From the NCBI GenBank assembly GCA_903839875.1, contig CAIMDZ010000102.1, forward strand, positions 1 to 64,000: DNA of 64,000 nucleotides, in the 5' to 3' direction. Shown here in pieces: positions 3,612-37,498 of this stretch. Both the position numbers and the translations under genes were made by a program. Origin of the DNA: an uncultured Bacteroidota bacterium. Its GTDB lineage: Bacteria > Bacteroidota > Bacteroidia > Chitinophagales > Chitinophagaceae. The notes below the pieces were generated by a model. It ran no database searches. It was not told the DNA's origin and saw only the letters and a list, made by a program, of their open reading frames with translations. How positions within the stretch are numbered: the stretch's first letter is position 1; every line of letters starts with the position of its first letter.

Positions 3612-3673
3612 AAAAATACTACAAATATAACATATATTAACGATAAATTATTGCCTATGATTAATAAGAAGAA

Positions 3674-3693
3674 GGGTGCCCGCAAGGGCACCC
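3674..3693. other. Perfect hairpin GGGTGCCC-GCAA-GGGCACCC
   Basis: 8-bp perfect arms with GNRA-type tetraloop in intergenic DNA. Confidence 0.6.
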
Positions 3694-3840
3694 TCAAATT
3701 AAGAAAATACTATCGAATGAGTTTAACCATCACAAGGACAACAGAGAGTATCAATTTGGTTTATGGGGGCCGTTAGTTAGTATTAGCTCTTTGACAGCAA
3801 AGTAATAGGAGCCAAAGCACACTGCCAAAACGAGTTTCTG

Positions 3841-3888
3841 AACGGTCGGAAAAGTTTTTTAACGGTCTGTTTATGTTTCCTAACCGTC
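3841..3888. repeat. AACGGTC repeat trio, ~20-bp period (cluster B)
   Basis: AACGGTC at 3841-3847 and 3861-3867, AACCGTC at 3882-3888. Confidence 0.6.
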
Positions 3889-4032
3889 CATTTTGGCTTA
3901 TATACGACAAGAAGAAATCAGGAAAAAGGTATGTTATTATCAGATTGGCATAGTGATGGTAACTACAGTCCATTGATGGTTGCCTGATCAATCCAAAAAT
4001 AAAAAAATCATCAGCAAAAAAAGCATTTCCCT

Positions 4033-4040
4033 TAACTTTG
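4033..4040 (+). promoter_or_regulatory. Bacteroidota -7 box TAACTTTG, 4 nt before the next start codon
   Basis: Matches TAnnTTTG; start codon at 4045. Confidence 0.4.
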
Positions 4041-4044
4041 CACT

Positions 4045-4569
4045 ATGCAATCACAAGAATTGATGAATTTGCTGCCAAATGATTTTGCAGACAGTGCGAA
4101 GGTATGGATTTACCAGAGCAGCCGTGCCTTTATTGAAAAAGAAGAAAAGGAAATAAATGAACAGCTATTTCAATTTTATACCCAATGGCAATCGCATGGC
4201 GACCAGGTGAAAGGTTGGGCGAAATTACTGTTCAAACAATTTATTGTTGTGCTGGCAGATGAGACTGATGTAATGGTAGGTGGATGCAGCACCGATGGTT
4301 CGGTACGTGTAATAAAAAGCCTGGAAAAGCAATATGACGTTAATTTCTTTGACAGACTGATGCTTACCTTCCTGGTAAAAAACAAAGCTGAAATGTTGCC
4401 TTTCAACCAGGTTCAATATGCTTTAGACAAAGGTTTTATTGACGGAAGTACCCCTTTATTTAATAATGTGGTAACTAGTAAAAAGGAACTTCTTGAGCAA
4501 TGGATCATTCCATTAAATGAAAGCTGGCTTGCCGGCAGAGTAAATCTAAGTGAAAAAGTAGCAGGATGA
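4045..4569 (+). CDS. Conserved Bacteroidota protein of unknown function
   Basis: 174 aa; I recall the family often being labelled 'ABC transporter ATPase', but no Walker motifs are visible. Confidence 0.75.
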   Translation: MQSQELMNLLPNDFADSAKVWIYQSSRAFIEKEEKEINEQLFQFYTQWQSHGDQVKGWAKLLFKQFIVVLADETDVMVGGCSTDGSVRVIKSLEKQYDVNFFDRLMLTFLVKNKAEMLPFNQVQYALDKGFIDGSTPLFNNVVTSKKELLEQWIIPLNESWLAGRVNLSEKVAG

Positions 4570-4577
4570 CGATCCGC

Positions 4578-5063
4578 TCATCTTAGTATTTTGCATTCTT
4601 TTCTTAATCGCTTTTTGTCAATTAATTCATTTAGTTGCTTTACAGAATATTTACCCTGTTCCCGCACCCCGCAATCGCAGAGTTCGGTAATGGGGTTTTT
4701 ATCTGCGATCATTTTATACAATTCAGCCGGATCTGGTGCAGATTTTAATTTCGCATAATGCGAACAGGTCATACTGATAAAAGCAGTATTAAGCCCTACG
4801 CCTTGCTTATCAAGCCAATAACCATTATGTAAAGAAACAGGAAGCCCGGCTTGCGCTTGGCTTCCTGTTTTAATATCAACCGGATCAGGGTATGAAACGA
4901 CAGTTTTTTTATCTTCTGAAAGCTGTACAGGTACCAGGTTCCTATGGTTTCCTTTTGCTTTATAAATCAAAATATGCGGCAACGCATTGCTGCCTTGTAT
5001 CTGAGCTTGTCCTATGTTGGTACTGCAAATAATAATGGCAATCAGAAAAACATTTCGCCTCAT
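4578..5063 (-). CDS. Secreted hypothetical protein, translationally coupled to the C10 peptidase
   Basis: 161 aa, signal peptide; TAATG overlap with the upstream gene. Confidence 0.75.
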   Translation of the reverse strand: MRRNVFLIAIIICSTNIGQAQIQGSNALPHILIYKAKGNHRNLVPVQLSEDKKTVVSYPDPVDIKTGSQAQAGLPVSLHNGYWLDKQGVGLNTAFISMTCSHYAKLKSAPDPAELYKMIADKNPITELCDCGVREQGKYSVKQLNELIDKKRLRKECKILR

Positions 5064-7297: not shown

Positions 7298-7413
7298 AAA
7301 TAATTGATTTTAAATAAAAATTGATTTAGATAATTAGCAAAAAGCATATAGTGTACAAAAAAATGCACAATATGCAAATATACTTAATAATACACACAAA
7401 AACAAATATAATC

Positions 7414-9867: not shown

Positions 9868-9936
9868 AAATATTTTGTTTAATTAAATAATAGAAGAATA
9901 GCATTCCAAGATGGATATGCATTATTAAGAGTAACT

Positions 9937-10470
9937 TTAGATAATAAAGCCCTCAGGTGGTGGCTTGACTACTCCGCTGACAAACAACAAACATGCATCT
10001 TCAGCCGGGGGAAAAAGTAATTGTACTTTTTCAATGCTGACGTAAGCGAATACATACGGCGCTACCAAAACCTTCCCGTCATCAGGTGCATGCAGCCTGT
10101 GCTTGTTTATATGTACACTATTATCGGTTGCGTATTTATCGTCCTGCGTGAAACTTTCAGCAAGATTTTTTACAAGGCCTTCCTCATTATTATCATGGTA
10201 AACCGTGACGGAAGCAGTACCATTTTCTACTGAATAACTTTTAATATCATACAGTTTTCCATTTACCCAAAGTTCATCTCCTGAATTGGTTTTCAGGAAT
10301 TCATTAACCGGTAATTTTATGATTTCAAGGCTGGTATTTGAACGGATATTCTGACCGGCTTCCAGTTTAAAGTGTACCTGTTGGGCGTCGAAAAAGAAAT
10401 AGAACAAAGTGCTGATGCCAAAACAAAACATCAGGCATATGGAAGCTATTTTATGTAAGAATTTTTTCAA
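9937..10470 (-). CDS. Hypothetical membrane-anchored protein upstream of the TonB receptor
   Basis: 177 aa with N-terminal TM segment; same strand, 70 bp from the receptor. Confidence 0.65.
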   Translation of the reverse strand: MKKFLHKIASICLMFCFGISTLFYFFFDAQQVHFKLEAGQNIRSNTSLEIIKLPVNEFLKTNSGDELWVNGKLYDIKSYSVENGTASVTVYHDNNEEGLVKNLAESFTQDDKYATDNSVHINKHRLHAPDDGKVLVAPYVFAYVSIEKVQLLFPPAEDACLLFVSGVVKPPPEGFII

Positions 10471-10539
10471 CGACTAAAAATAAACTGCATAAAGGTAAAA
10501 TATAATTTCTAAAAGATGCATTTGCAACGTTATCTGCTA

Positions 10540-11943
10540 TTACCCAAACCCTGCCTCCTGGTGCAATGCGGGTATTTCAATATCCGGAAATCCATTTTTC
10601 AACAGGCGTTCCCTGAATTCAACCTGAACCTCATATTCACCATGAACTAAAAATAATTTTTTTACCAGTTTAGGGTCCTGGCACCCCAGCCAATGGATTA
10701 GGTCCTGGTAATCGCCATGTGCGCTCAGGCTCTCAATTACACCTACCTCTGCGGCCACATGGTGAGGCTCTCCGTAAATAGTCACTTCTTTTACGCCATT
10801 CCTTAATTTACCACCAAGAGAATGGGGTTCGCAATAACCAACAATAAGTATTGTATTCCTGGCATCATCTATGTTATGGGCTATATGGTGCTTCACCCTT
10901 CCAGCCTCAGCCATACCTGAAGCGGAGATGATAACACAGGGATCTTTCCTGTCATTCAGTTTTATTGACTCCTCTGCGGTTTGTAAATATTTCAATCCAT
11001 TGAAGGAAAAAACATCTTGATCTTTTTCAAGCAGGGTCTGTACTTCTTTGTTGAAACAATCAGGGAAATGTTTTACTACTTCTGTCGCCTTTATGGATAA
11101 CGGGCTGTCAACAAAATAATCTAATGGCGGTAGCCGGTGTTCTGTTTCCAGCCTGTTTAGCAGAAACAATATTTCCTGTGTCCTTCCTACACTGAATGCC
11201 GGGATAATTAGTTTACCTTTCTTTTTAAGACAGGTATCGGTAACGAAATTCAAAAGTTTATCGGTAACCGGAGTAGCAAGGTCGTGCAACTTATTACCAT
11301 AAGTAGATTCAAGGATTATATAATCAGCCTGTGGAAAAACTTCAGGAGATTTAAGGATAAGGTCGTTATACCTGCCCACATCTCCGCTGAAGGTAAGCCT
11401 GGTTTCTTTACCATTTTCCTTTATCCTCAGATTCACTGCAGCGCTTCCTATAATATGACCACAATCGGTATAGTACAGTTCCACATCATCATCTATTCTG
11501 TAGTACTCATCATAAGGCACCGGTTTTAAAAGAGGCCCGACTTTGGTGGCATCATCAACTGAATACAATTCAGTTACCTGTGGCTTACCAAGTTTTTTAT
11601 TCCTTTTATTAACATGCTTTACATCATCTTCCTGTATATGCGCAGAATCAAGAAGCAGCACCATAGCCAGTTCAGCCGTCTGCGGCGTGCAATAGATCGG
11701 CCCTTTATAGCCATCTTTTACTAATTTGGGTAGCAGACCAACATGGTCAATATGTGCATGGGAGATGATCACATAATTGAGGCTTAGCGGATCAAAACCC
11801 CAATTGCTGTTTAGTTCCAGTGTTTCCTTCCCCAGTCCCTGGAACATGCCACAATCAAGCAGGATGTTCTTATCGGGGTTGATATGCAGTAAATGTTTGG
11901 AACCTGTTACTGTTCTTGCTGCACCGTGAAAAGTTATTTTCAT
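10540..11943 (-). CDS. MBL-fold beta-CASP ribonuclease-like metallohydrolase
   Basis: HAHIDHVGLLP, SGDVGRYND, ILESTYGN, SASGMAEAGRVKHH, VHGE. Confidence 0.9.
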   Translation of the reverse strand: MKITFHGAARTVTGSKHLLHINPDKNILLDCGMFQGLGKETLELNSNWGFDPLSLNYVIISHAHIDHVGLLPKLVKDGYKGPIYCTPQTAELAMVLLLDSAHIQEDDVKHVNKRNKKLGKPQVTELYSVDDATKVGPLLKPVPYDEYYRIDDDVELYYTDCGHIIGSAAVNLRIKENGKETRLTFSGDVGRYNDLILKSPEVFPQADYIILESTYGNKLHDLATPVTDKLLNFVTDTCLKKKGKLIIPAFSVGRTQEILFLLNRLETEHRLPPLDYFVDSPLSIKATEVVKHFPDCFNKEVQTLLEKDQDVFSFNGLKYLQTAEESIKLNDRKDPCVIISASGMAEAGRVKHHIAHNIDDARNTILIVGYCEPHSLGGKLRNGVKEVTIYGEPHHVAAEVGVIESLSAHGDYQDLIHWLGCQDPKLVKKLFLVHGEYEVQVEFRERLLKNGFPDIEIPALHQEAGFG

Positions 11944-12050
11944 CTTATTGTTTCATCCAATTTTGTTGGAGCGGAATAAAAGTAATGAAAAGTAGGCTGC
12001 CATTCAGTTCAAAAATAACAAATAAGCATTTAAACAATCAGACTACCCCG

Positions 12051-14066
12051 CTACAATTGCAACACCTTAAACTCGATCACCCTGTTTTCATAATGTTCCT
12101 TATCCGTACACTTGCTGCAATCAGCATCCGGGCATTGCGTTAATGGTTGTGTACTACCGTAGCCAATTGACTTAAGCCGTTTCGCAGAAATACCTTTGTT
12201 TACCAAGTATTTTACTACAGCGCCGGCCCTTTCGTTTGAAAGTTTAAGATTATAGGCAGCAGTACCCCGGCAATCTGTATGCGCCCGTATTTCAATTTCC
12301 ATAGTAGGATGATGCTTCAGCACACCTGCAAGACTATCAAGCACCTCTTTCTTAATTGAATTTAGACCAAATTCATTCACATTGTAATTGAAATGCGAAA
12401 TTTCATACACTTCACTGATCACATATTGCATTACTGCCGGAGAATCGAACCGCCTTGATTTGGAGATATAAGGCGCTTTAACAGCAGCATCGAGGGTATC
12501 CTTAGACAATGGAACTTTTGACATAACCACAGTCCTTGTAATAGTATCTACTTCATCAATATTCGAAGTATTTACTGAAATGGATTTTGGCACATAACCG
12601 GCTTTACTGATATTGATGTTATACTGTGTTTTAAGCGCCAGTTGCCTGAACAGCGAACCATTATTATCAACCTGTACATTAATATTATCATTCGCTGCGT
12701 CAGATACAATGCTAACATCCTGCAAAGGTTCATGAGTGTCTCCATCCGTAACCTTCAGTTGCAAAAATGCTTTCTGACATTTATAGTAATAAATGTTATC
12801 GCCGCTTTTCTTCGCAGGCCTGTTTGATGAAAAATAGGTGCTTCTGCCATCTGCAAACAATGCCAGGGAAATATCATCATAAGATGAATTTATAGGTATG
12901 CCAACATTTTCCGGCGCTGACCAGGTCTTGGTTTTTTCATCAAGTTTACAAACATATATATCCAGTCCGCCCAGGCCTTCATGCCCGTCCGACGAAAAGA
13001 AAAGTGTGTTGTTGTCTGCAAGATATGGAAAGGCTTCCTCTCCTTCGGTATTGATAACATTGCCAAGATTTTTTGGAGTGGACCACGAACCATCAGCTCC
13101 TTTTTTGCACATATAAAGATCTGAGCCGCCTGAACCGCTGTGCATATCCGAAGAAAAGATCAACATTTTACCGTCAGGACTTACCGTAGGGTGGGCAACT
13201 GAATATTCTTTGTTATTGTATTCAAATGGTTTTACCTTTTTAAACTTTTTCTCCTCTGCATCATATTCCGATGCGATCATTATCTCCATAGGCACCACCT
13301 TATTACTGTTTGCCACGGCATGCTTTCCGAAAAACCGGTTGTCATAGCTGGTGCGGGTAAAGTACATTTCCTTACCGTCTGCGCTGAAAGTACAAGGCCC
13401 ATCATGGTATTTTATATTCACATCCTTCGTTTCGGTAATAGTTCTGAGCTCCCTGCCGCAATGCCCCTTTGGGTCAGTAGTAACTGTATAAATATTGTAG
13501 TATGAACTGCCTGTCCACCGATCGGTTTTCTTACTGATTTCAATGGCAGTATCTGCAGTAAATACAAGGTTTCCCTTCCATAATGTCGGGGCGAATTCTG
13601 AACAATTTGCATTAAATTCAAGTAGTGTGGCAGTTCCCGGGGCTGAGGCATTTAACCTTTTGGGTGCAGAGTGGCAACCTGCTATCATATTGGTGGCCCT
13701 TCTGTCTGCCTTACTCATTTTCTGATAGTCAATAAGTACTTTCTCCGCATCATCATACTGCATTAGCTGCATCAATACCTGGGCGTAGTGCAATAAAACA
13801 TAATCCTTGCAACCTTTCTTTTTTATTGCCTTTGCATACCATTTAGACGCCTTTTGCAAATTGTTTGTCATCCGGTAGCAATCGGCAAGGCGCATGTAAA
13901 TTTCCACATCGCGTTCCTTTACTGCATATTCTTCAAAGAAAGGTATAGCCTCATGATAGGCATAATGCTCGTAATAATAGTTGGCCTTGATAAGGTCCTT
14001 CTTCTCCTTTCCGGAAGCATAAAAAGAGACAATAAGAAACAATACGATAACAAAAAATGATCTCAT
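12051..14066 (-). CDS. TPR / PD40 beta-propeller / OmpA-family protein, PorE-like T9SS component
   Basis: N-term TPR-like helices; SPDGKMLIFSSDM repeats; C-term OmpA motif EIRAHTDCRGTAAYNLKLSNERA. Confidence 0.88.
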   Translation of the reverse strand: MRSFFVIVLFLIVSFYASGKEKKDLIKANYYYEHYAYHEAIPFFEEYAVKERDVEIYMRLADCYRMTNNLQKASKWYAKAIKKKGCKDYVLLHYAQVLMQLMQYDDAEKVLIDYQKMSKADRRATNMIAGCHSAPKRLNASAPGTATLLEFNANCSEFAPTLWKGNLVFTADTAIEISKKTDRWTGSSYYNIYTVTTDPKGHCGRELRTITETKDVNIKYHDGPCTFSADGKEMYFTRTSYDNRFFGKHAVANSNKVVPMEIMIASEYDAEEKKFKKVKPFEYNNKEYSVAHPTVSPDGKMLIFSSDMHSGSGGSDLYMCKKGADGSWSTPKNLGNVINTEGEEAFPYLADNNTLFFSSDGHEGLGGLDIYVCKLDEKTKTWSAPENVGIPINSSYDDISLALFADGRSTYFSSNRPAKKSGDNIYYYKCQKAFLQLKVTDGDTHEPLQDVSIVSDAANDNINVQVDNNGSLFRQLALKTQYNINISKAGYVPKSISVNTSNIDEVDTITRTVVMSKVPLSKDTLDAAVKAPYISKSRRFDSPAVMQYVISEVYEISHFNYNVNEFGLNSIKKEVLDSLAGVLKHHPTMEIEIRAHTDCRGTAAYNLKLSNERAGAVVKYLVNKGISAKRLKSIGYGSTQPLTQCPDADCSKCTDKEHYENRVIEFKVLQL

Positions 14067-17749: not shown

Positions 17750-20700
17750 TTATCTTTTTATTAAAATAGTTCCGGTAAATATATTTTTCCCGCCAAAAGC
17801 ATTTGTCGCATTCAGCTTCACCAGGTAGTAGTAAGTACCATCCGGCAATAATTCTCCCTTACGCACTCTTCCATTCCAGTCATTATTATAATCTTTTTTT
17901 TCAAAAACCATATCTCCCCATTTATCAAATACCTGCACAGTATTATCAGGATATTTCTGAATCTCTTCTATCACCCATACGTCATTAATACCATCTCCGT
18001 TTGGGGTTATCACATCATGTATCTGCAGGTCTTTGCAGGTATCGTCCTTAATCTCTATTGTGTCTGATATTATACAGGAGTTTACATCCTTTACCAGCAC
18101 AATATAAATCCCGCTATGCAATGCTGTCCTTGGGTTTCCTGTGCTGTTATCCGTCCAGGTGTAAGTATATGGGATAGTACCTCCTGTGACGGTTAAAGTA
18201 ATACTGCCTGCACCTGCTTTACAAAAATCATTTGTTTTTTGATCTGTTACACCTAATTGTTCAGGTTGGTTTAATGGGTAAGTATAATCTGCGGCACACA
18301 TTGTTAGTCCGTCTTTTACATGCAATGTATAAATACCGGCTGCAAGACCATATAGGGCTGCAGACGAATCACCGGTTGACCAGGTATAATGGTAATTACC
18401 GGTTCCGCCGGAAATAGAAACGGCTAAACCTCCGGTCTTTTCTCCATTACAATTTATCGGCGTCAGAACATCAGTCATTACAAAAGGAGCAACGGAAAGC
18501 ACCGTAAAGGGGAAAGTTGTTTTATTCGTACATCCGAAAACATTCGGAGCAGTAGTATAGGTTATAGTTGTTGTTCCGGGGCTAAGTGCAGTTATAGTTC
18601 CTGTCAGGCTGTCAATTGTAGCTACTGTTGTATTACTGCTGCTCCATTTACCCCCGGTAACAGCATTTAATAAAGTAGTGACGGCTCCTGTACAGACACG
18701 TTGCAATCCTGTGATAGTACCTGCAGATGGCAAAGGGTTTACGGTTATTGATTTTGTAACCGTTGATGAGCCACATGAATTGGTTACTGTATAACTTATA
18801 ACACAATTACCAGCGGTGATTCCGGTTAACAAACCCGAATTAGAATCAATCGTTGCAATGCCCGCAGCAGAACTTAGCCACTTCCCTCCTGTTGCCGTAT
18901 CAGACAATGTAATTGCAGCGCCGGCACAAACATTGGAAAGCCCGGTAATCACTCCGGCATTAGGTAGTCCGCTGCTAACGTTAATAATCTTCCTGGCTGT
19001 AGCTGTACCGCAGTAGTTGGTAACACTATAAATTATCGTATCTAATCCAATACTAACTCCTGTTACTACCCCGCTTGCTGAAACTGTGGCTTTGGTATTA
19101 CTGCTGCTCCAGACTCCTCCTGCAACTGTATCTGTCAAAGTGATTGAAAATCCAACACACAGGCTGGTAGTACCATTAATAGTTCCTGCATTCGGTAAAG
19201 GATTTACGGTAATTGCTTTGGTTGCCACTGCTGTGCCACAGGAATAAACTATAGTATAGATAATTGTATCCACGCCTGCCGACAACCCGGTTACTAATCC
19301 CCCGGTTACCGAGGCATGACCATTGCTGCTGCTCCAAATCCCCCCGGATATGCTGGCTGAAAGCAGGATCGTTGACCCCTGACAAACTGAAGACGGCCCT
19401 GAAAGCGTTCCGGGTGTAGGTGTAGTAGTTACTGTAACATAAATTGTGGTTGTATCTGCGCCCGGTCCGTCAGAAATCCGTACTTTAAAAGAATCATTTC
19501 CCAGGTATCCTGTGTTGGGTGTATAGGTTAAACCCGAAGGAATAAGTATACCCCCTGTAGATGTTGTTGAATAGGTTGCCACAGCAATGCCATGCAAGGG
19601 GGCTAAAATCAGGCTCCATGTTTCTGTCTGCCCGAAATCTGGGTCTGTAACAGCAAGCAAGGTATCAATATTGGTTGCCGTTGCATTCTGGCAAACGGTC
19701 ATGTTTTGTGAATGCCCGCCTGCAAAATGAGGCGGCGTATTACCAAAGGTAATCCTCCTGATCCTGTTATTTTCTTTGTCTGATACAAAGAGCATTCCAC
19801 TCCAGTACACCGCCTTTACCGGCCTGTAGAATTGTGCAGAAAGTGGCGGACCTCCGTCGCCGGAGAAACCAGGTGTACCTGTTCCGGCAATCGTTGTAAT
19901 TATTCCGGCCGGGTTAATTTTCCGGATCAGAAAATTATCGGCGTCACACAAATAAATATCACCGGCGCCGTTAAATTCTAGGCCCATCGGGCCGCGTACA
20001 GTAGCTGCAGTTGCAGGTCCTCCGTCTCCGCTCCAGCCATAAACGCCGGTACCAATTGCAGTGGAAATGATTCCGGCAGTATTTACCAGCCTGATCCGGT
20101 TATTCATCCAGTCAGAAATATAGATATTTCCTGCTCCGTCAACCGAAACATCATTGGTAAGATTAAATGTAGCCAGAGTTGCAGGCCCGCCATCTCCTGA
20201 AAATCCTGAAACACCATTTCCCGCTATTGTAGTAATAATTCCTGCAGGGTCTACTTTACGCAGCCTGTTGGTTGTCCGGTCCGGAATATAAATATTCCCT
20301 GCTCCGTCCACCCAAAGTCCGTTATCGTTCGAAATGCTGGCAAGTGTAGCCGCCCCTCCGTCACCGCTATAACCACCTATACCGTTTCCCGCCACAGTAG
20401 TAATGATCCCGGATGCATCTACTTTACGGACTCTTGCGTTACCATTATCAACAAAGTAAACATCCGTTCCGTGTATTGCCACACCGGTTGGCCCGGCCAT
20501 CCAAGCCGCAGTGGCCGGACCACCATCCCCTCCAAACCCACTGATACCATTGCCCGCGAAAGTGGAAATAATACCCGCAGTATTTATTATTCGTATCCTG
20601 TTATTTCCATAATCTGCTACATAAATATTTCCCGCCGCATCTATCGCCATCCCCCATGTTCTGCTAAACTGCGCCAATGTAGCGGGGCCACCATCCCCTC

Positions 20701-20821
20701 CAAACCCATATACACTACTGCTACCTGCCACTGTAGTAATGATCTGTGCATGTGTAATGAATACACAGCAAAGCATTAATAAAAATGTTAGGGTACGGCT
20801 TTTCATGGTATTATTGATCAC
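17750..20821 (-). CDS. NHL-repeat + Ig-like protein with CHU_C (type B) C-terminal domain
   Basis: Repeated ITTIAGNGxxGFSGDGGPAT units; C-term nearly identical to the 15058-17700 product. Confidence 0.9.
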   Translation of the reverse strand: MINNTMKSRTLTFLLMLCCVFITHAQIITTVAGSSSVYGFGGDGGPATLAQFSRTWGMAIDAAGNIYVADYGNNRIRIINTAGIISTFAGNGISGFGGDGGPATAAWMAGPTGVAIHGTDVYFVDNGNARVRKVDASGIITTVAGNGIGGYSGDGGAATLASISNDNGLWVDGAGNIYIPDRTTNRLRKVDPAGIITTIAGNGVSGFSGDGGPATLATFNLTNDVSVDGAGNIYISDWMNNRIRLVNTAGIISTAIGTGVYGWSGDGGPATAATVRGPMGLEFNGAGDIYLCDADNFLIRKINPAGIITTIAGTGTPGFSGDGGPPLSAQFYRPVKAVYWSGMLFVSDKENNRIRRITFGNTPPHFAGGHSQNMTVCQNATATNIDTLLAVTDPDFGQTETWSLILAPLHGIAVATYSTTSTGGILIPSGLTYTPNTGYLGNDSFKVRISDGPGADTTTIYVTVTTTPTPGTLSGPSSVCQGSTILLSASISGGIWSSSNGHASVTGGLVTGLSAGVDTIIYTIVYSCGTAVATKAITVNPLPNAGTINGTTSLCVGFSITLTDTVAGGVWSSSNTKATVSASGVVTGVSIGLDTIIYSVTNYCGTATARKIINVSSGLPNAGVITGLSNVCAGAAITLSDTATGGKWLSSAAGIATIDSNSGLLTGITAGNCVISYTVTNSCGSSTVTKSITVNPLPSAGTITGLQRVCTGAVTTLLNAVTGGKWSSSNTTVATIDSLTGTITALSPGTTTITYTTAPNVFGCTNKTTFPFTVLSVAPFVMTDVLTPINCNGEKTGGLAVSISGGTGNYHYTWSTGDSSAALYGLAAGIYTLHVKDGLTMCAADYTYPLNQPEQLGVTDQKTNDFCKAGAGSITLTVTGGTIPYTYTWTDNSTGNPRTALHSGIYIVLVKDVNSCIISDTIEIKDDTCKDLQIHDVITPNGDGINDVWVIEEIQKYPDNTVQVFDKWGDMVFEKKDYNNDWNGRVRKGELLPDGTYYYLVKLNATNAFGGKNIFTGTILIKR

Positions 20822-24232: not shown

Positions 24233-24724
24233 CTAACTCTTCATATTCACAAACTGCAGCGGCAAATCCAGCGCCGATGTTTTGCAAAGTTGAATAACAG
24301 CCTGCAGCTCATCTATCTTTTTGGCAGTTACACGTATCACATCGTCCATTATCGCAGCCTGCACTTTTGATCCGCTGTCCTTAATAAGCTTCACTATTTT
24401 CTTCGAATTTTCTTTATCAATGCCGTTCTTTATGCTTACAGTCTTGCGCACATACTTGCCATTCGCAGATGGTTCCTTACTCAGGTCAAATGCATTTGCC
24501 TCTATACCCTGGCGCATAGCCTTGGTAAGCAACACATCCTGTAGTTGCGACAGTTTCATATCGCTCTCCACTTCTATCGCTATGGTCATATTCTTTTTGT
24601 TCAGCTCAAAGGTTACATGAGTGCCCTTGAAATCCCAACGGTTGTCAATTTCTTTTTTGGCTATGTTTACTGCATTATCAAGCGTTTGCAGATCTACTTT
24701 ACTGGCTATATCAAAGGATGGCAT
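24233..24724 (-). CDS. yajQ: YajQ family nucleotide-binding protein
   Basis: MPSFDIASKVDLQTLDNAVNIAKKEI.NRWDFKG; full-length 163 aa. Confidence 0.93.
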   Translation of the reverse strand: MPSFDIASKVDLQTLDNAVNIAKKEIDNRWDFKGTHVTFELNKKNMTIAIEVESDMKLSQLQDVLLTKAMRQGIEANAFDLSKEPSANGKYVRKTVSIKNGIDKENSKKIVKLIKDSGSKVQAAIMDDVIRVTAKKIDELQAVIQLCKTSALDLPLQFVNMKS

Positions 24725-24926: not shown

Positions 24927-26081
24927 TTATCCAGCAACTGCTTTTCCCGCCTTATACGCAGCTATTACTTCACAATAAAGCCGCTCGTACCGGGGTATAA
25001 CATGCTGTTTCTCGAATTTCCGGGCCTGGTTGATTGCTGCTTTTTTGAAATTCTGGAGCCGGTCTTCATCACTAAGAATATAAATTGCATTTCTCGACAT
25101 GGACTCAATATCACCTACATTGCTCATGAAACCAGTCTCCCCATCCACATTGATCTCAGGCAACCCGCCTGCATTGGTAGAAATAAGCGGCACACTGCAT
25201 GCCATGCCCTCTAAGGCAGATAACCCAAAGCTTTCCGTTTCTGAAGGCAAAATAAACAGGTCTGCAATACTTAGTATCTCACTGATCTGCTCCTGTTTAC
25301 CCAGGAAACGGACATCGTTATACAGTCCAAGAGTCCGGGCAAGATCCTCAGCCATCTGCCTGTCAGGCCCGTCACCTATCATCAGCAACTTTGCTGGAAC
25401 AACCTGCTTTACCTTATCAAATACCTTAATTACATCCTGTACTCTTTTTACAGAACGAAAGTTGGAAACATGCACTAGAATTCGCTCTCCTTCCGGCGCC
25501 AGCATTTGCTTGAAATGGTCTTTATCTGCCTGGAAAAAACGTTTTATATCCACAAAATTCGGGATGACGTGAATTTCTTTTTCTATTTTAAATGAGTGGA
25601 ACGTTTCCGCTTTCAGATTTTCAGAAACAGCCGTAATCGCATCAGATTCATTTATGGAAAAAGTAACTACCGGCTCATAAGTTGGGTCTTTACCAACAAG
25701 TGTAATATCCGTACCATGCAGTGTCGTGATGAATGGTATATCCCTGCCGGTCTTCTTCAGTATCTGCCTGGCGAAATAAGCCGCAGAAGCGTGCGGGATG
25801 GCATAGTGAAGGTGCAGTATATCCAGGTTCTGGTTTACGATCACATTTACCATGGCGCTCGCAAGCGCTGTCTCATAAGGCGGAAAATCGAACAACGGAT
25901 AGGTAGGCACCTTTACCTCATGGAAATAGATATTGGGATGAAAACTCTGGTTTAATCTTACAGGTTGTTCATAAGTTATGAAGTGTACTTCATAACCCTT
26001 ATCAGAAAGCGCGATGCCCAATTCTGTAGCCAGAACCCCGCTGCCACCAAATGTAGGATAACATACTATACCGATCTTCAT
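24927..26081 (-). CDS. bshA: N-acetyl-alpha-D-glucosaminyl L-malate synthase (bacillithiol pathway GT4)
   Basis: MKIGIVCYPTFGGSGVLATELGIALSDKGYEVHFITYEQPVRL; SETESFGLSALEGMACSVPLISTNAGG. Confidence 0.9.
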   Translation of the reverse strand: MKIGIVCYPTFGGSGVLATELGIALSDKGYEVHFITYEQPVRLNQSFHPNIYFHEVKVPTYPLFDFPPYETALASAMVNVIVNQNLDILHLHYAIPHASAAYFARQILKKTGRDIPFITTLHGTDITLVGKDPTYEPVVTFSINESDAITAVSENLKAETFHSFKIEKEIHVIPNFVDIKRFFQADKDHFKQMLAPEGERILVHVSNFRSVKRVQDVIKVFDKVKQVVPAKLLMIGDGPDRQMAEDLARTLGLYNDVRFLGKQEQISEILSIADLFILPSETESFGLSALEGMACSVPLISTNAGGLPEINVDGETGFMSNVGDIESMSRNAIYILSDEDRLQNFKKAAINQARKFEKQHVIPRYERLYCEVIAAYKAGKAVAG

Positions 26082-26587: not shown

Positions 26588-29404
26588 CTATTGTTCAATT
26601 ACCAGGTGGAATACTTTATTCTCTGAACCTGAACGCAGGCTTAAAATATACATACCGTTAGCAAGTGTATTGCTGGTCTGTATCCTTTCGTTCAGTTCAC
26701 CATTATGTGTCAATACTTTGCTGGTATAAACAACCTGGCCAAGCATATCAGTTACCTCAACTGAAATTTCTTCGTCTGTTGTAGTCCCCAAAGTACCTTT
26801 CAGCATAAATGTTCCCTTGTTAGGATTTGGAACAAGCCTTATATCGCTGCCTGACAGCGAAACAGGCTGCACACCTACATTCGAGATATGAACCGTTAAA
26901 GAACCGGATCCAACATTACCTGCGCAACCGCCACCACTCACTATACTGCAGGAAACATCATCTCCATTGTTCAGTGCGCTTGTAGTATAGGTTTGATTAG
27001 TAGCTGTCGGAACCTGGATTCCGTTAACACTCCACTGATACGCAGGAGCAGCTCCGGCGCCGGTAACATTTGCTGTAAAGGTTACCGGTTGCCCTGCAAA
27101 AATATTAGTTGAAGGCGAAGCAGTAACAGTAACCGTTGGCGTCGTTGAAACGTCAACTATCATATTAATATGGCTGCTGACGCCTGAACTTGTAAGGCGG
27201 CAATGATAATTGCTGGTCATGATGCAATAAATGTCATCGCCATTTGCAGGGGCATAGCTGAAGTTAGCAGTTGTTCCTATGTTCGAACCATTCTTTATCC
27301 ATGAATAAACAGGTGTTGGGCCTCCGAATGAAGGAGTAGCTGTGTAGTTCACCGTTGTACCCTGGCATACTTCATTTCCGGGGAAAGCTGCAATACTTAC
27401 AGCCGGAGTACCCTGTGGTAGCACATTAAGCGTAACAGACCTGTTTACGGTAGCAGGTGAAGCGCAAAGTGCATTACTTGTAAGGGTCACTGTCAGTACA
27501 TCGCCGTTTAATGGTATATAGCTGTAGTTATTGCTAAATCCTGCTATCACTCCATTCACCTTCCATTGGTAAACAGGAGGAGTACCGCCATTCGTAGCAA
27601 CAGCCGTGAAGGTTGTGAATGTACCCGAACATATTGTGTCTCCTGCCGGAGTAGAAATATTTACAATTGGTGTAACAGAAGGATTTACGGTTACTATGGC
27701 ATTTCCTGCCATTGGCATTGTACACCCTGTAGTATTATCTGTAGCTATTACGGTATAGGTAGCGCCGGTTGTAATGATACCCATATCCAGGATACCTCCT
27801 GTTCCTGCTACCGGGCTGCCAACTGCTGTAAACCCGTTAAATAACTGGTAATTCACACCTGAATTAGAACCATTTAATCCAACATGAACACCGCCTGTGC
27901 CTGAACAGAAACTGCCGCCGCCCGTTACTGCAAATACTGCAGGTGGTGTATTTATTATTACAGGAACACTGCCCGACATATTGCCCGTACATCCATTAAT
28001 ATTGTTAGTTCCTACAACTGTATAAGTACCCGCTGTTGTTTGTAAACCAAAGTCAATTGCCGGTCCGGAACCTGTCATCCCCGTCCCTATTATGGTAGAA
28101 CCATTGTATAAGAGGTAAGTCACATCAGCTTGTGAACCGCTGATACCTACATGAAGTCCAGGTCCGCCGGGGCAATAATTACCTCCGCCTATTACTGAAT
28201 AGGCAGTTGGTGATGGATTGATACCTACTGTCACTGTTCCCAGCATATTCCTGGTGCAGGTTGTTGATGGGTTAGTGGCAATTACCGTGTAAGTTCCTGC
28301 TGAGGTTAATAATCCGAAGTCTATGCCAAGTCCTGTTCCGGCAACAGGAGCTCCTGCAGCAAGTGAACCTACATATAACTGATAGTTAACTCCGCTTTGC
28401 GAACCGCTCAAACCTACATGAACCCCTGAGCCACTTGCACAATAGGTACCACCGCCTGTAATTGTATAAACATACGGTAGTGAATTCATAACAACAGTTG
28501 CTACACCCGACATATTATTTACGCAGGTTGTAGCAGGGTTGTTAGCTATTACCGTATAAGCCCCTGTTGCACTTCTGATACCAAAACTAATTGCTGATCC
28601 TGTACCACTTACCGGGCTTCCTGTTGGCGTGCCATCAAGATACAACTGGTACATAACCCCTGCGTAAGAACCACTCAAACCAACCGGAACACCAGCCGTT
28701 CCGTTACAATAACCGCCACCGCCGGTCATAGAGTAGGCAATTGGCAATGGATCAATTACTACTGTAACACTGCTGGCCATATTATGTGTGCACGATGTGC
28801 TTGCGTTAATGGCAACTGCTGTATACATGCCGGCTGCTAACTGAGCGCCGAAATGTACTGATGTCCCTGTACCTGGTAGAGGGCTGCCTACTGCTGTTCC
28901 GGCAAGGTATAACTGGTAGTTAACGCCAACTTCAGAGCCCGACAGATAAACATCCACACCGGTACCACCTATGCAATAATTGCTGCTGGTACTGGTAACA
29001 TTATAAACATTTGGTAGTGGGTTGATACCAACAGAAACACTTCCGGTCATGTTATTTACACACATGGTACTTGTATTGGTAGCTACAACTGTATAGTTAC
29101 CTGCTGCTGTCTGTAATCCGAAATCAAGTCCGAAACCTGTACCTGCCATTGGTGCGCCAACCATTCCGAAGCCGGCCCTGTATAATTGGTAGCTGATACC
29201 TGTATTCGATCCGCTAAGCATTACGTGAACACCTGTTCCGCCTGTGCAATAGTTACCACCTCCCGACACCGTATATGCAACTGGTAAAGCATTAATGCCA
29301 ACAGATACACTGCCGGTCATACTGTTTGTGCAGGCTGTGCCTGTATTTGTTGCAACAACTGTATAAGTGCCTGCTACTGTTTGCAAACCGAAATCTATAA
29401 TCAA
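26588..29404 (-). CDS. 3' portion: remaining repeats, Ig-like domains and T9SS tail
   Basis: 938-aa ORF starting mid-repeat (MIIDFGLQTVAGTYTVVATN), no signal peptide. Confidence 0.7.
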   Translation of the reverse strand: MIIDFGLQTVAGTYTVVATNTGTACTNSMTGSVSVGINALPVAYTVSGGGNYCTGGTGVHVMLSGSNTGISYQLYRAGFGMVGAPMAGTGFGLDFGLQTAAGNYTVVATNTSTMCVNNMTGSVSVGINPLPNVYNVTSTSSNYCIGGTGVDVYLSGSEVGVNYQLYLAGTAVGSPLPGTGTSVHFGAQLAAGMYTAVAINASTSCTHNMASSVTVVIDPLPIAYSMTGGGGYCNGTAGVPVGLSGSYAGVMYQLYLDGTPTGSPVSGTGSAISFGIRSATGAYTVIANNPATTCVNNMSGVATVVMNSLPYVYTITGGGTYCASGSGVHVGLSGSQSGVNYQLYVGSLAAGAPVAGTGLGIDFGLLTSAGTYTVIATNPSTTCTRNMLGTVTVGINPSPTAYSVIGGGNYCPGGPGLHVGISGSQADVTYLLYNGSTIIGTGMTGSGPAIDFGLQTTAGTYTVVGTNNINGCTGNMSGSVPVIINTPPAVFAVTGGGSFCSGTGGVHVGLNGSNSGVNYQLFNGFTAVGSPVAGTGGILDMGIITTGATYTVIATDNTTGCTMPMAGNAIVTVNPSVTPIVNISTPAGDTICSGTFTTFTAVATNGGTPPVYQWKVNGVIAGFSNNYSYIPLNGDVLTVTLTSNALCASPATVNRSVTLNVLPQGTPAVSIAAFPGNEVCQGTTVNYTATPSFGGPTPVYSWIKNGSNIGTTANFSYAPANGDDIYCIMTSNYHCRLTSSGVSSHINMIVDVSTTPTVTVTASPSTNIFAGQPVTFTANVTGAGAAPAYQWSVNGIQVPTATNQTYTTSALNNGDDVSCSIVSGGGCAGNVGSGSLTVHISNVGVQPVSLSGSDIRLVPNPNKGTFMLKGTLGTTTDEEISVEVTDMLGQVVYTSKVLTHNGELNERIQTSNTLANGMYILSLRSGSENKVFHLVIEQ

Positions 29405-29440
29405 GCCGGTACCTGCCCAGGGAGCGCCTATTGCAGTAAG

Positions 29441-32400
29441 TCACCTGAATAATTGGTAATTAATACCAACCGTAGATCCGCTAAGCATTACATGCACACC
29501 TGTTCCGCCTGTACAATAATTTCCGCCACCGGTTACTGTAAAAACAATTGGCAATGGATTAACTGTAATTAATGAGCTTCCGGTCATATTATTGCTGCAG
29601 GTAGTAGTAGAACTAAGGGCTATTACTGTATAGGTTCCTCCTGCAGTTTTCAATCCGAAATCAAGAGCGCTGCCCGTACCTGTCATTGGAGAGCCTGCCG
29701 GTATACCTGAGAGGCTTAACTGGTAACTGATTCCAGGGTCCGATCCGTCAAGACCAATGTGAACGCCTGTTCCACCTGCACAATAACTGCCACCACCGGT
29801 AACGTTATAGGAGGTTGGTAAAGCGCTGATAGTAACAATGGCGCTGCCATTCATGTTATTCGAACAGAAAGTTGTTCCGCTGGTTGCAATTACTGTATAA
29901 GTTCCGGTTAATTCAAGACCAAAGTCTATTACAAGACCTGTCCCTGCAATTGTAGTGCCGGCCGGCCCGGTAGTATTATATAATTGGTAGCTTGTACCCA
30001 GGTCTGATCCGCTTAATCCAACATGAACGCCTGCGCCGCCGGGGCAATAATTTCCGGTACCGGTAACGTTAAATGCTGCCGGTAATGACGAAATCCCTAC
30101 GGCTACACTGCCTGTCATACCTGCCGAACAACCTGTGACCGCATCTGTTGCAACAACAGTATACGTGCCGGGCGCTGTTTGCAGACCAAAGTCAATGATA
30201 AGTCCGGTTCCCGGGATTACAGGTCCTATTGTAGAGCTGCCATTAAATAACTGGTAGTTGATGCCTGTTTCTGATCCGTTAATATAAACATGTACACCTG
30301 TGCCGCCGGGGCAATAATTACCACCGCCGGTAACTAAATGAAGTACCGGGAGTGGATTAATATTAACATTAGTGCTTCCACCCATGTTTGTGGTGCAACC
30401 TGTTACAGTATTGGTGGCAATAATATTATACGTTCCTACTGAGGTCTGCATGCCGAAATCAAGTGAAGACCCTGTTCCTACCAATGGAGGACCTACAAGG
30501 GAACTCCCTAAATAAAGCTGGTAGTTTGTTCCAACCGCTGATCCGCTTAGTCCTATATCAACTCCGGGTGTTCCAAAACAATAATTTCCGCCACCTGTGA
30601 GTAAAAAGATTGCAGGCAACGGATTAATACTAACAACTGCACTGCCGGCCATTGTGTTGGTACATGAGGTAGCGGTATTGGTAGCAACGATCGTATACGT
30701 TCCGGGAGCGGTACGTAAACCAAAATCAAGAGCTGCACCAGTACCTGACATAGGCAAGGTTACCGGCAAACCTGAATTGTAAAGCACATAACCGATGCCG
30801 GGTGTGGAAGCGCTAAGTCCGATATGCACGCCTGTGCCGCCGGTACAATAACTGCCGCCGCCTGTTACATTAAATGCCGTTGGTAGCGGGTTCACCCCTA
30901 CAACAACACTGCCTGACATTGTGTTGGAACATCCAGTAACTGTATTGGTAGCTATAACAGTGTAGGTTCCGGCAACTGTCTGAGGGCCGAAACTAATGGA
31001 TGTACCGGATCCTGGTATTGCAGTACCTATAGGCGTTGAACCGTTAATTAATTGATAACTTACGCCGATAGTTGATGTGTTCAAACCTACAACTGATCCG
31101 GAACTGCCTGCGCAATAACCGCCGCCGCCTGTAACATTATAAGCGGTTGGCAAGGGGTTAACAGTAACAACAACACTTCCGGTCATGTTGCCTGAACATC
31201 CTGTAGTTGTATTGATGCCCACAACTGTATAGGTACCCGCTACAGTTCTTAATCCAAAATCAATGGCCGATCCTGTACCGGCAACTGGTGAACCAGACAG
31301 ACTGGTACCGCTGATATACAACTGGTAACTGACTCCGGTAATGGAACCACTGACGCCAATATGCACGCCTGTACCGCCTGCACAATAACCGCCACCGCCT
31401 GTTACTGCAGATGCCGGTGGTAACGGATTAATGTTAACCGATGCACTGCTACTCATTATGTTTGTGCAGCTTGTTGTTGGATTGGTTGCAACTACGGTAT
31501 ACGAACCTGCCGCGGTTTTCAATCCGAAATCAAGTCCGAATCCTGTACCTGCTACAAAGGTCCCGGATGGTGAACTGCCTGCAAATAACTGATAATTTAC
31601 GCCTGTTGTGGAGCTTGTTGTTCCTATATGAACACCTGTTCCACCCGCGCAATAACTTCCGCCACCTGTAACTGCGAAAATAACAGGCAATGGATTGATA
31701 CTAACAGTTACGCCACCGGTCATTGTTGAAATACATCCTGTTATGCTGTTTGTTGCAGTTATGCTATAAAAACCCGCAGCTGTTTCTAATCCGAAATCAA
31801 TGGCAGAACCGGTTCCTGCTGACGCGCTCCACAGTGAGGATCCATTATACAACTGGTAAATAATTCCGGGTTCTGAAGAGTTAAGTCCGACATGAACACC
31901 TGACCCGCCTGAACAATATCCTCCGCCACCGGTAACGGTATAGAGATTAGGTAATGGATTGGTGGAAACTGATGCGCTTCCACTCATATTCATTGTGCAA
32001 CCGGTGGTCGCATTGGTTGCGGAAATGGTATAAGAACCAACAATGGTAAATAATCCGAAATCAAGCGAAACTCCTGTACCGGCTATTGGAGCGCCAACAG
32101 CAGTTGTGCCACGGTAAATCTGGTAATTAACACCAACGGTGGAAGCATTAAGCCCGATATGAACACCAGTACCTCCAACACAATATGCACCACCACCTGT
32201 TACATTAAATACCGTTGGTAAAACATTCACAACAACTGTTGCGGAACCCGCCATAGTACTAATACAACCTGTGGTTGTATTGGTAGCAACTACAGTGTAG
32301 CTTCCGCCTGCAGTTATTGGGGATACAAATGAGAATGCTGACCCTGTACCGGATACAACTGCACCGGAAACCGGTGATCCGCCAAAATATAACTGGTAGC

Positions 32401-35284
32401 TAACACCAGCATCTGAACCACTTAATCCTACAGTAACTCCGGAACCTCCTGAACAATATGCCCCCCCTCCTGTCACACTGTAAACAGTAGGTAAAAGATT
32501 GGTACTTATTGTAACACTGCCGCTCATATTATTCACACAGCCTGTTGTTGTATTGGTTGCAAATACGGTATAAGTACCGGTTGCTGTTAACAACCCAAAA
32601 TCAAGCGCAGCGCCTGTTCCGGAAACGGGGGAACCAATGGCGGTCGTCCCGTTAAATAACTGGTAATTGACGCCTATAGTTGACGTACCTAACCCAACAT
32701 GCACACCTGTTCCGCCAGTGCAATAACTGCCACCGCCGGTAACTGAAAATGCAGTAGGTAACGGGTTAATAACAACTGTGGCAGATCCGGTCATTGTAGT
32801 TGCACATGCGCTGCCGGGGTTGGCAATAACAGAATAGGTTCCCGCAGTTGCCATTGGTGGAAAACTGAAACCATAGCCTACGCCTGAGATTGCTGTACCT
32901 GCCAATGCAGATCCATTAAATAAACGATAGCTGACTCCTGCATCTGATCCCGACAATCCGATACTTACCCCTGTGCCTCCGGCGCAATATCCGCCACCAC
33001 CGGTAACCGTATATACATTTGGAGTTCCTGTAACCCCGAATACAGCGGTTGCTATACAACCTGTGGAAGCCACGGTATAAGTAATAGTGGAGACTCCTGA
33101 TCCAATACTTGTAGCTACGCCGGAAATTGAACCAATAGTGGCTACCCCGGTATTACTGCTCGACCACGTTCCGCCAGGGGTGGCATCAGTTAAGGAGGAG
33201 GTAATACCTGTAGCACAAACACCAAGCACACCAAGTATAGGTGCCATGCTATTGACTGTCATAGTTTGGGTTGCGGAACATCCTGCAGCAGATGTATAAG
33301 AGATAACTGGATTCCCTCCTGCTATACCAGTAACAACCCCCGAAGAGGAACCCACGGTAGCTAAAGAAGTATTACTGCTGCTCCACGTACCGCCTGTAGT
33401 AGCATCACCTAATGCTGTAGTAAAGCCTGGACAAACACTTGATGTTCCGGTTATGGAAGCTGGACTCGCGTTAACTGTTACTGGTAGTGTTGAAATACAA
33501 CCACCCGGCAGTGTGTAAGTAATAGTTGCTGTTCCAGACGTAAGCCCGGTAACAAGGCCCGTTGACGAACCCACAGAAGCTTGCGCCGGATTACTGCTGC
33601 TCCATGTACCGCCTGAAGTCGAATGAGTGAATGGGGTGGCATTGCCTATGCAAACGATTGATGTACCGGTAATGGCTGCGATTGGTACAACGGTAACCGT
33701 AGCAATGGAAGTTGCTCCACCTATGGTGTAAGTAATTATGGATGTTCCGCCTGATAATCCGGTAACTATACCGGAAATGGAACCAATAGCTGCAACTGTC
33801 GGGCTGCCGCTGCTCCATGTACCACCGGAAATAGAGTCTGTTAATGTTGATGATAAACCCGGGCATACACTAAGGTTTCCTGATATGCCGCCCATAATAC
33901 CGAAAATATAGTCTCCTGCTAATGAAGCCAGGGGCACGCCTGTAGTGGTAGCGGAAGTAGTGGGAGATGTGTTATTGGTTGTTTGATAAGGCCCAAGCCA
34001 TGAAGAAGCTGAATAATTCCGGGTAACAAATCCGCTGTTACCTGCCCCGCCGAGAATATCGCCTGAAGGATACGTGGCCAACGGAATTACGGTAGCGGGT
34101 CCTGCGGCTCCTGAATTGGTTATGGTCCAGTAATCGTTTACCATCTGACCACCTCGTAACCCTGATGTACCCACCGAAGCGTGCAATCCATGTGTAACGG
34201 CAACTCCGAGACTCCCGGAGCTACCGGAAGAGCTAAGTGTCAGCTGCATTGGCGTATATGTCGTACTATAGCCTACTTCATAGTTAATGGCTGAATTCCC
34301 GGAAATAGTTTTCATTAAAGTTCCTATTACATAGTTGGAGGACCCTGCCCCGCTTATCGCTGTTGATACGCCCGGAATAGTAAGAGAATTACTCCCTGTA
34401 TTGAGGTTACCCGCAATAAAAGTAAGAGCGCCGGTAGTATTGGTATTGGCAGTGCTTTGTGAAAGTGTAACGCCGGCAGCGTTATTGATAATAAGCTTAG
34501 CGGGAGATACAAGCGATGCGGGCATCAATGAGCCGGTAACCTGTGCTGCAGTGCCGGTAAATCCATAAGTGGCGCCGGTAGCAAAAGTAGTTCCGCCTGT
34601 TGATACAATAGCTGAATTAACACCGCCTGCCATGCCGGTATAAAGTGTAGCGCCACTGTTTAAGACAAAAGGACATGAGCCGCCAAAAGAATAAGTACCG
34701 CAATCAAGAGTACCGCTAATTGAAAATGTAGAGGATGATGTATTCCAGGTATTATTGGCAGTAAACGCTACCGTAACACCTGTATTAACATACATGTAAG
34801 TATAATTGCCGGAGCCTGTGGTTGTCATGGTACAATGTTGCGGGCTCGAAAGCGAAGATGCAGTATTGGTAAAGTAAAAATAATTCCATGATGGCGGATT
34901 CGTCATAACTGACGTACCTGAAGCACTAAAATCACCGCTGACATAAAAATAATTAGCAGTTTCACCATAAAGATTAGTAGAGCCTGTAAGGGAGAGATTA
35001 TAACAATTTATGGTACCGAAATAGTCATAAAATGTGACACTGCTTAATTGTAGAGTAGTGCCTGTGCCTAACGTCCATGTGCCACTGCCGCCGCTCATGT
35101 TCGTCTGCATGATAAAAACATCTCCGGAGGTAGTGAAGTTTGTGGGTGACGATCCCGTTCCGGTGCTGACACTATTCCAGTTCGATGTACTGGAAGGGTC
35201 TCCTGTACCTTGGGAATACCACGTTGTTGCAAAGCCTGTAACATGAAGGCTGATAAGGACGAATAAAAAATAAATTTTCTTCAT
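29441..35284 (-). CDS. 5' portion: signal peptide, N-terminal domain, BIG2-like repeats and 14 Cys-containing ~77-aa repeats
   Basis: 1947-aa ORF ending ...VGINYQLFR*; repeat theme VTGGGxYCxGGxGVHVGLxGSxxGVxYQLYxG. Confidence 0.85.
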   Translation of the reverse strand: MKKIYFLFVLISLHVTGFATTWYSQGTGDPSSTSNWNSVSTGTGSSPTNFTTSGDVFIMQTNMSGGSGTWTLGTGTTLQLSSVTFYDYFGTINCYNLSLTGSTNLYGETANYFYVSGDFSASGTSVMTNPPSWNYFYFTNTASSLSSPQHCTMTTTGSGNYTYMYVNTGVTVAFTANNTWNTSSSTFSISGTLDCGTYSFGGSCPFVLNSGATLYTGMAGGVNSAIVSTGGTTFATGATYGFTGTAAQVTGSLMPASLVSPAKLIINNAAGVTLSQSTANTNTTGALTFIAGNLNTGSNSLTIPGVSTAISGAGSSNYVIGTLMKTISGNSAINYEVGYSTTYTPMQLTLSSSGSSGSLGVAVTHGLHASVGTSGLRGGQMVNDYWTITNSGAAGPATVIPLATYPSGDILGGAGNSGFVTRNYSASSWLGPYQTTNNTSPTTSATTTGVPLASLAGDYIFGIMGGISGNLSVCPGLSSTLTDSISGGTWSSGSPTVAAIGSISGIVTGLSGGTSIITYTIGGATSIATVTVVPIAAITGTSIVCIGNATPFTHSTSGGTWSSSNPAQASVGSSTGLVTGLTSGTATITYTLPGGCISTLPVTVNASPASITGTSSVCPGFTTALGDATTGGTWSSSNTSLATVGSSSGVVTGIAGGNPVISYTSAAGCSATQTMTVNSMAPILGVLGVCATGITSSLTDATPGGTWSSSNTGVATIGSISGVATSIGSGVSTITYTVASTGCIATAVFGVTGTPNVYTVTGGGGYCAGGTGVSIGLSGSDAGVSYRLFNGSALAGTAISGVGYGFSFPPMATAGTYSVIANPGSACATTMTGSATVVINPLPTAFSVTGGGSYCTGGTGVHVGLGTSTIGVNYQLFNGTTAIGSPVSGTGAALDFGLLTATGTYTVFATNTTTGCVNNMSGSVTISTNLLPTVYSVTGGGAYCSGGSGVTVGLSGSDAGVSYQLYFGGSPVSGAVVSGTGSAFSFVSPITAGGSYTVVATNTTTGCISTMAGSATVVVNVLPTVFNVTGGGAYCVGGTGVHIGLNASTVGVNYQIYRGTTAVGAPIAGTGVSLDFGLFTIVGSYTISATNATTGCTMNMSGSASVSTNPLPNLYTVTGGGGYCSGGSGVHVGLNSSEPGIIYQLYNGSSLWSASAGTGSAIDFGLETAAGFYSITATNSITGCISTMTGGVTVSINPLPVIFAVTGGGSYCAGGTGVHIGTTSSTTGVNYQLFAGSSPSGTFVAGTGFGLDFGLKTAAGSYTVVATNPTTSCTNIMSSSASVNINPLPPASAVTGGGGYCAGGTGVHIGVSGSITGVSYQLYISGTSLSGSPVAGTGSAIDFGLRTVAGTYTVVGINTTTGCSGNMTGSVVVTVNPLPTAYNVTGGGGYCAGSSGSVVGLNTSTIGVSYQLINGSTPIGTAIPGSGTSISFGPQTVAGTYTVIATNTVTGCSNTMSGSVVVGVNPLPTAFNVTGGGSYCTGGTGVHIGLSASTPGIGYVLYNSGLPVTLPMSGTGAALDFGLRTAPGTYTIVATNTATSCTNTMAGSAVVSINPLPAIFLLTGGGNYCFGTPGVDIGLSGSAVGTNYQLYLGSSLVGPPLVGTGSSLDFGMQTSVGTYNIIATNTVTGCTTNMGGSTNVNINPLPVLHLVTGGGNYCPGGTGVHVYINGSETGINYQLFNGSSTIGPVIPGTGLIIDFGLQTAPGTYTVVATDAVTGCSAGMTGSVAVGISSLPAAFNVTGTGNYCPGGAGVHVGLSGSDLGTSYQLYNTTGPAGTTIAGTGLVIDFGLELTGTYTVIATSGTTFCSNNMNGSAIVTISALPTSYNVTGGGSYCAGGTGVHIGLDGSDPGISYQLSLSGIPAGSPMTGTGSALDFGLKTAGGTYTVIALSSTTTCSNNMTGSSLITVNPLPIVFTVTGGGNYCTGGTGVHVMLSGSTVGINYQLFR

Positions 35285-35677: not shown

Positions 35678-37498
35678 ATGAGCGATAATTACATAGTTTC
35701 AGCACGTAAATACCGCCCCCAGACGTTTGATACGGTGGTGGGTCAGGAGCATATTACCACTACACTGAAGAATGCCATAAAGAACCAGCACCTGGCGCAT
35801 GCCTATCTTTTTTGCGGACCAAGGGGTGTGGGTAAAACCACCTGTGCACGTATTCTGGCAAAGACCATCAACTGCGAAAACCCCTCCGCTGATATGGAGG
35901 CATGTGGGGTGTGTAATACATGCCTGAGCTTTAATAACAATTCGTCCTTTAATGTTTTTGAACTGGATGCGGCAAGCAATAACTCGGTGGATGATATCCG
36001 GGAACTGACCAACCAGGTACGGTTTGCTCCGCAGCAGGGCAAATACAAGGTCTATATAATTGATGAGGTGCACATGCTGAGCGCTTCGGCATTTAATGCC
36101 TTCCTGAAAACCCTGGAAGAACCCCCACCCTACGCTATCTTCATCCTCGCTACTACCGAAAAGCATAAGATACTCCCTACCATCCTCAGCCGCTGCCAGA
36201 TATTTGACTTCAGGCGCATTACTACGCACGATATTACTGCCCATCTGCAAAGTATAGCTGTTAAGGAAAAAATGGTAGCACAGGAAGCCGCCCTGCATAT
36301 CATAGCACAGAAGAGTGAAGGGTGTATGCGCGACGCCCTTTCTATGCTCGACCGTATTGCCAGCTTTACCAATGGTTTGCTCACCTACAGCAATACCATG
36401 GAGCACCTGAACCTGCTGGATGCCGATTTTTACTTCCGCCTCACAGACAGTATGCTCAGCCAGGATGTGGCAGGTTCTTTATTACAACTGGATGAAGCAT
36501 TGGAAAAAGGTTTTGAAGGCGATGTGATCATTAATGGACTTGCAGAATATTTCCGCAACCTGCTTCTTTGCAAAGACCATCGAATGGTAAAGCTGCTTGA
36601 TGTGCCAAATGACCTCCGGCCTCTGTATCATGAAAAAGCCAACCAGGCGCCCCCTTCATTCATTATTTCGGCATTAAATGTAATTAACGATAGTGAACTT
36701 AATTACAAAACAGCTACCAATAAACGGCTGCATATAGAAATGTGCCTGATTCGGTTATGCTATCTTTTGCAGGCTGTTTCAGGTGCTCAGGTATCTGTTG
36801 GAGGCACGCAGGTACCGGATCATAGCGATGTAAAAAAAAACAGCAATAGTATAAATAATGCTTCTGCTCAGGTACCAAAAGATGAATTAATAACTTTAAA
36901 TAAAGCGACAAAATCAACTGACTATCAACAAAGTAATATAAACGAACAAAAAAATCAGGTAGCGCCTGCCAAACCGGAAGTTACTCCACAACCCGTACCT
37001 GTAACCACCTCAATTAATACTCCGATACCAGCTAACAACCGCCGTTTATCCAAAAATATATTGGATGACATAGACAAAAAAGTAATTGATGCTACTGCCA
37101 ACAAAGACCGGCAGCAGCAAGCGCTCACGGTTGAATTAGCGGATGGGCTATTCGAAAAATATAAGCAACAATTACAGGCAGCCGGCAAAAATGTTATCTA
37201 TTCCCAGTTCAGTATGATGCGGATAGAAGTTTTGCCACCCGACGAAATAAGGTTAATATCCCCAAGTGATCTTACTGATACCTACGCCAAAGAACAAAGA
37301 ACGCTGCTACTGGATTTTTACAGGGAAGAAACCAAAATTATGGTACGTATCACAACAGAGGTAAAGGAAGATGAATCTGTTATTGCTTCCCAGAATACAG
37401 TGGTGCTGAGCAAAAGCGAAATGTTTGATGTTATGGCGCAGAAAAACCCTAGTTTGGGGAGATTGAAGGATGCGTTGAATTTGAGTATAGAGTACTGA
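35678..37498 (+). CDS. dnaX: DNA polymerase III subunit gamma/tau
   Basis: ARKYRPQTFDTVVGQEHITTTLKNAI; FCGPRGVGKTTCARILAK; four-Cys zinc motif; IDEVHMLS. Confidence 0.95.
   Translation: MSDNYIVSARKYRPQTFDTVVGQEHITTTLKNAIKNQHLAHAYLFCGPRGVGKTTCARILAKTINCENPSADMEACGVCNTCLSFNNNSSFNVFELDAASNNSVDDIRELTNQVRFAPQQGKYKVYIIDEVHMLSASAFNAFLKTLEEPPPYAIFILATTEKHKILPTILSRCQIFDFRRITTHDITAHLQSIAVKEKMVAQEAALHIIAQKSEGCMRDALSMLDRIASFTNGLLTYSNTMEHLNLLDADFYFRLTDSMLSQDVAGSLLQLDEALEKGFEGDVIINGLAEYFRNLLLCKDHRMVKLLDVPNDLRPLYHEKANQAPPSFIISALNVINDSELNYKTATNKRLHIEMCLIRLCYLLQAVSGAQVSVGGTQVPDHSDVKKNSNSINNASAQVPKDELITLNKATKSTDYQQSNINEQKNQVAPAKPEVTPQPVPVTTSINTPIPANNRRLSKNILDDIDKKVIDATANKDRQQQALTVELADGLFEKYKQQLQAAGKNVIYSQFSMMRIEVLPPDEIRLISPSDLTDTYAKEQRTLLLDFYREETKIMVRITTEVKEDESVIASQNTVVLSKSEMFDVMAQKNPSLGRLKDALNLSIEY

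Follow-up and report, generated by a model that had tools for sequence, protein, structure and literature searches.

Large repeat proteins of Bacteroidota that are secreted by the type IX secretion system (T9SS) and carry a PF18962 domain have a signal peptide, many repeats in succession, Ig-like domains and the PF18962 domain at the end. The gene described here has the same layout and differs from them by its interrupted frame. Its syntenic orthologues of the Flavipsychrobacter type (L021, L022, L025 and L026) share its neighbours, its repeats (54-64% identity over these) and its C-terminal sorting tail, but they lack the stop and have another N-terminal module. A natural premature stop in one isolate has likewise been described in the same phylum: in Flavobacterium psychrophilum FPS-S11B, a single mutation creates a premature stop in gldB (PMC8400371). 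In that case the bacterium loses a component of gliding motility and shows a phenotype, whereas in our window (the whole 64,000-nucleotide stretch of DNA that was analysed) the protein affected is one redundant cargo protein. We think it probable, at roughly 0.62, that a recent nonsense change broke one gene for a very large protein secreted through Sec and then T9SS.

An in-frame TGA lies inside one giant repeat gene

The whole gene occupies 26588-35284 of the minus strand (8.7 kb) and encodes 20 repeats of about 89 residues (Table 1). The minus strand reads TGA at 29441-29443, in the context ...GINYQLFR-(stop)-LTAIGAPWAGTG..., within the 14th of the 20 repeats. The first-pass annotation had proposed that this codon splits a single gene without an indel, and both points are borne out. 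The frames 29441-35284 and 26588-29440 are in register, giving 2,898 codons, the TGA included, ahead of the terminal TAG. A profile derived from the gene's own units finds all 20 in one frame and aligns with the TGA-bearing unit over model positions 1-89 at 128.8 bits, a fit that speaks to register only and is no independent proof of homology. This full-length alignment across the TGA indicates that there is no indel, and that the stop replaces a sense codon rather than marking a frameshift. Most sister repeats of the gene have glycine in the stop's column or one residue off. The leucine after the stop is atypical for its column; phenylalanine, also hydrophobic, occupies it in one sister repeat, so the leucine needs no second event.

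The 5' part starts MKKIYFLFVLISLHVTGFA, which is signal-peptide-like by inspection and resembles the starts of intact homologues, and the 3' part carries a Por_Secre_tail domain (PF18962) at its residues 871-948 (39 bits, cut-off 27, E=1e-9). As the sequence reads, the Sec signal and the sorting domain are not on the same polypeptide, a separation that the first-pass annotation had described correctly.

Table 1. Features of the interrupted gene and its neighbours in the window
Feature	Coordinates	Strand	Basis or content
In-frame TGA stop	29441..29443	-	Sequence reading, open-frame check, repeat-profile alignment
5' part, 1,947 codons	29444..35284	-	Signal-peptide-like start, N-terminal module, Big_2/NUP210-Ig-like domains, 13 complete repeats and start of 14th
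3' part, 950 codons, TAG stop	26588..29440	-	Rest of repeat 14, six more repeats, Ig_3/PKD_3 domains, C-terminal Por_Secre_tail
Repeat unit holding the TGA	29279..29545	-	Full-length model match; 34456-34722 of the reverse complement
Glycosyltransferase, downstream synteny marker	24927..26081	-	82-86% identical in orthologous loci
DUF520 protein, synteny marker	24233..24724	-	85-87% identical in orthologous loci

Orthologues at the same locus are intact

In L021, L022, L025 and L026, the best relatives of the gene adjoin the same glycosyltransferase and DUF520 genes, at 82-87% identity. These loci belong to other species of the same genus, and in 4/4 the gene is intact, as one frame of about 2,700 codons. 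An intact orthologue is present at the same locus in relatives, as is expected of a unitary pseudogene or nonsense allele. When homologues are aligned with the window's gene, the stop column is glycine in 6/6 of them, the residue that had been predicted from a sister repeat reading YQLFRGGTSIG; that repeat exists, but it belongs to another gene (ORF 283-2127, at +649).

Identity to the homologues is 56-64% for the 3' half and 55-61% for the 5' half, and most pairs of intact homologues are 52-58% identical. The N-terminal module (33845-35284, minus strand; about residues 1-480) is 22-31% identical to that of the syntenic orthologues, against 39-62% among the orthologues themselves. The repeats align throughout with the orthologues despite this divergent module, and the comparison suggests that the 5' module of the window's gene was swapped relative to theirs.

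Elsewhere in the 8.7 kb gene we found no second stop or frameshift, and no excess divergence, the two halves being equally close to the homologues. With neither a second lesion nor excess divergence, the stop has arisen very recently, if it is real at all. By computation, a single random substitution in the gene has a chance of about 2-3.5% of creating a stop. If the gene has evolved free of constraint since it was lost, the neutral time elapsed is bounded (95%) at about 1.0-1.6% substitutions per site, and counting indels at 10% of substitutions lowers the bound to about 0.3%; a still-working gene would satisfy this bound and the divergence result equally. The gene thus shows neither decay nor relaxed constraint, which are typical of older pseudogenes and are not required of a fresh allele.

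Internal stops are rare in the repeat family

With the read-through protein as query against 35 genomes of the genus, about 150 matches were listed, and only the window's gene among them has an internal stop. We also read the repeat units directly in 17 stretches (the window, nine others of the same genome and seven of relatives). The 32,058 repeat codons contain one stop, the window's TGA, and none of the 17 stretches has a frame change inside a repeat array. A single stop across the matches and repeat codons indicates that the family is not given to internal stops, and on these counts we reject a family-wide habit; related genes finish at ordinary stops, TGA included. We also rejected a second suspected interruption, on contig C53 of the window's genome (open frame 3,051 in the genome search). 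It resolves into two neighbouring complete genes, one at 3032-6556 and one at 6953-12160, the latter ending with a sorting tail and TAA.

UGA is probably decoded as an ordinary stop

Several ordinary genes of the window stop at TGA, for example a DNA polymerase III gamma/tau-like gene (35678-37498), and the genome has RF2. Selenocysteine insertion was rejected: selA was not found in the genome, tRNA-Sec gave no match over the cut-off there (sub-threshold matches coincide with ordinary tRNAs), and no structured element follows the UGA, the RNA 3' of the stop folding no better than shuffles (z=+0.53). A suppressor or reassigned tRNA was rejected as well, given that RF2 is kept, that a UCA anticodon is absent among the 37 tRNA genes found in the genome and that the single tRNA-Trp(CCA) looks normal, with five anticodon-stem pairs possible. 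A four-pair anticodon stem of tRNA-Trp is discussed for UGA reading in PMC13092985; able to form five pairs, this tRNA is not of that kind.

These results bear on the readthrough that the first-pass annotation had proposed, in which an amino acid inserted at UGA-CUU would give some full-length protein. UGA is generally the leakiest stop in bacteria, and the frame stays open for 950 codons past this one. A C after UGA increases readthrough in yeast (PMC5289835). The decoding machinery and downstream RNA described above argue against such recoding, as do the lack of any other in-frame TGA in the family (in the matches listed and the 32,058 codons) and the proper termination of a sister gene in a relative (L024) by a TGA right after its sorting tail. 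With glycine in all six homologues, the stop is also not conserved between species, as it would be in programmed readthrough. Since it is not conserved, the UGA-C context is a weak hint, and it is the one feature that supports the proposal; we regard readthrough as very improbable. Background leakage at UGA is possible, at a few per cent at most. There is only a very slight chance that such leakage places a few full-length, surface-anchored molecules beside the unanchored truncated form.

Weighing the explanations

Two of the four explanations offered by the first-pass annotation, a fresh nonsense allele and a sequence error, fit the data; both are ordinary, and the nonsense allele is the most likely. 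It agrees with the intact syntenic gene of four other species of the genus and the glycine of the homologues, with the stop being the only one in frame among the listed matches and repeat codons, and with a 3' half no less similar to homologues than the 5' half and free of further lesions. The presence of RF2, the failure to find selA and the 55 matches to the 3' half in the same genome also favour it. An assembly or consensus error, with a sense codon in cells and the gene intact, comes next, and we consider it unlikely though well worth keeping in mind. The genome is a draft of 226 contigs, the difference is of single-base type with no other damage in 8.7 kb, and the relatives are all intact; a consensus error would look the same as a nonsense allele, and the lack of decay would equally be seen if one base had been misread in an intact gene. 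At 1 wrong base per 100,000, about 3% of them nonsense-producing, we estimate rather than measure one or two false stops per 5.3 Mb. Against an error, the repeat units of other loci read from the same genome have no stop or frameshift. The 301 bases around the TGA are only 70% identical to their next best copy, a divergence that makes repeat collapse or mis-joining at the TGA unlikely.

The same divergence weighs against an allele that switches on and off, and against a stop that comes and goes by recombination with other copies. Many partly similar copies are available in the genome, but even the best match the neighbourhood at only about 70% identity and the stop occurs in none of them, whether among the listed matches in 35 genomes or in the 32,058 codons. 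The change is a non-repetitive substitution found in no relative, and the site has no short tandem repeat or homopolymer; it shows neither the slippage tract nor the invertible or recombining element that marks phase variation. The on/off allele, also proposed in the first-pass annotation, is thus unsupported, and we give a switch of either kind very little credence. Least credible of all are two functional genes. The listed 3' ORF does have a start of its own, at TTG 29404, 36 bases past the TGA, but this start lies inside a repeat unit and has no signal peptide, and in the orthologues the corresponding region lies within a single frame. The independent downstream ORF with its own export signal, which the first-pass annotation had named as evidence against its reading, is not seen.

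If the nonsense allele is the right reading, the TGA is presumably real in cells and translation would end after residue 1,947. The intact protein would be exported by Sec and then by T9SS; the truncated product, lacking the C-terminal sorting domain, should not attach to the surface, and the 3' part has no signal peptide. We infer that the product is non-functional. The genome's many other giant repeat genes of similar kind would buffer one such loss and should make it tolerable. The locus would then be an ordinary broken copy and show that a bacterium can lose one of its many giant T9SS repeat proteins; the automatic gene calls there describe halves of one gene. The interruption would gain importance only with proof that the cells make a single protein from both halves.

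Related repeat genes and T9SS cargo

Several frames of 3,000-5,300 codons with similar repeats lie on other contigs of the genome. Within the window, ORF 283-2127 (plus strand) is a short gene with three units of the same repeat, and beyond the window on the same contig (G000:C102; L042 and L043) there are much longer genes with this repeat. The 5.3 Mb genome encodes at least 150 Por_Secre_tail domains (150/286 candidates scored), a very large T9SS cargo set. Within the window, a C10-family peptidase gene (5063-7297, minus strand) has a Spi-type inhibitor domain ahead of the peptidase and ends in a Por_Secre_tail. A further gene (17750-20821, minus strand) combines NHL/teneurin-type repeats with SprB repeats and has a CHU_C tail, a T9SS sorting domain of another type than Por_Secre_tail.
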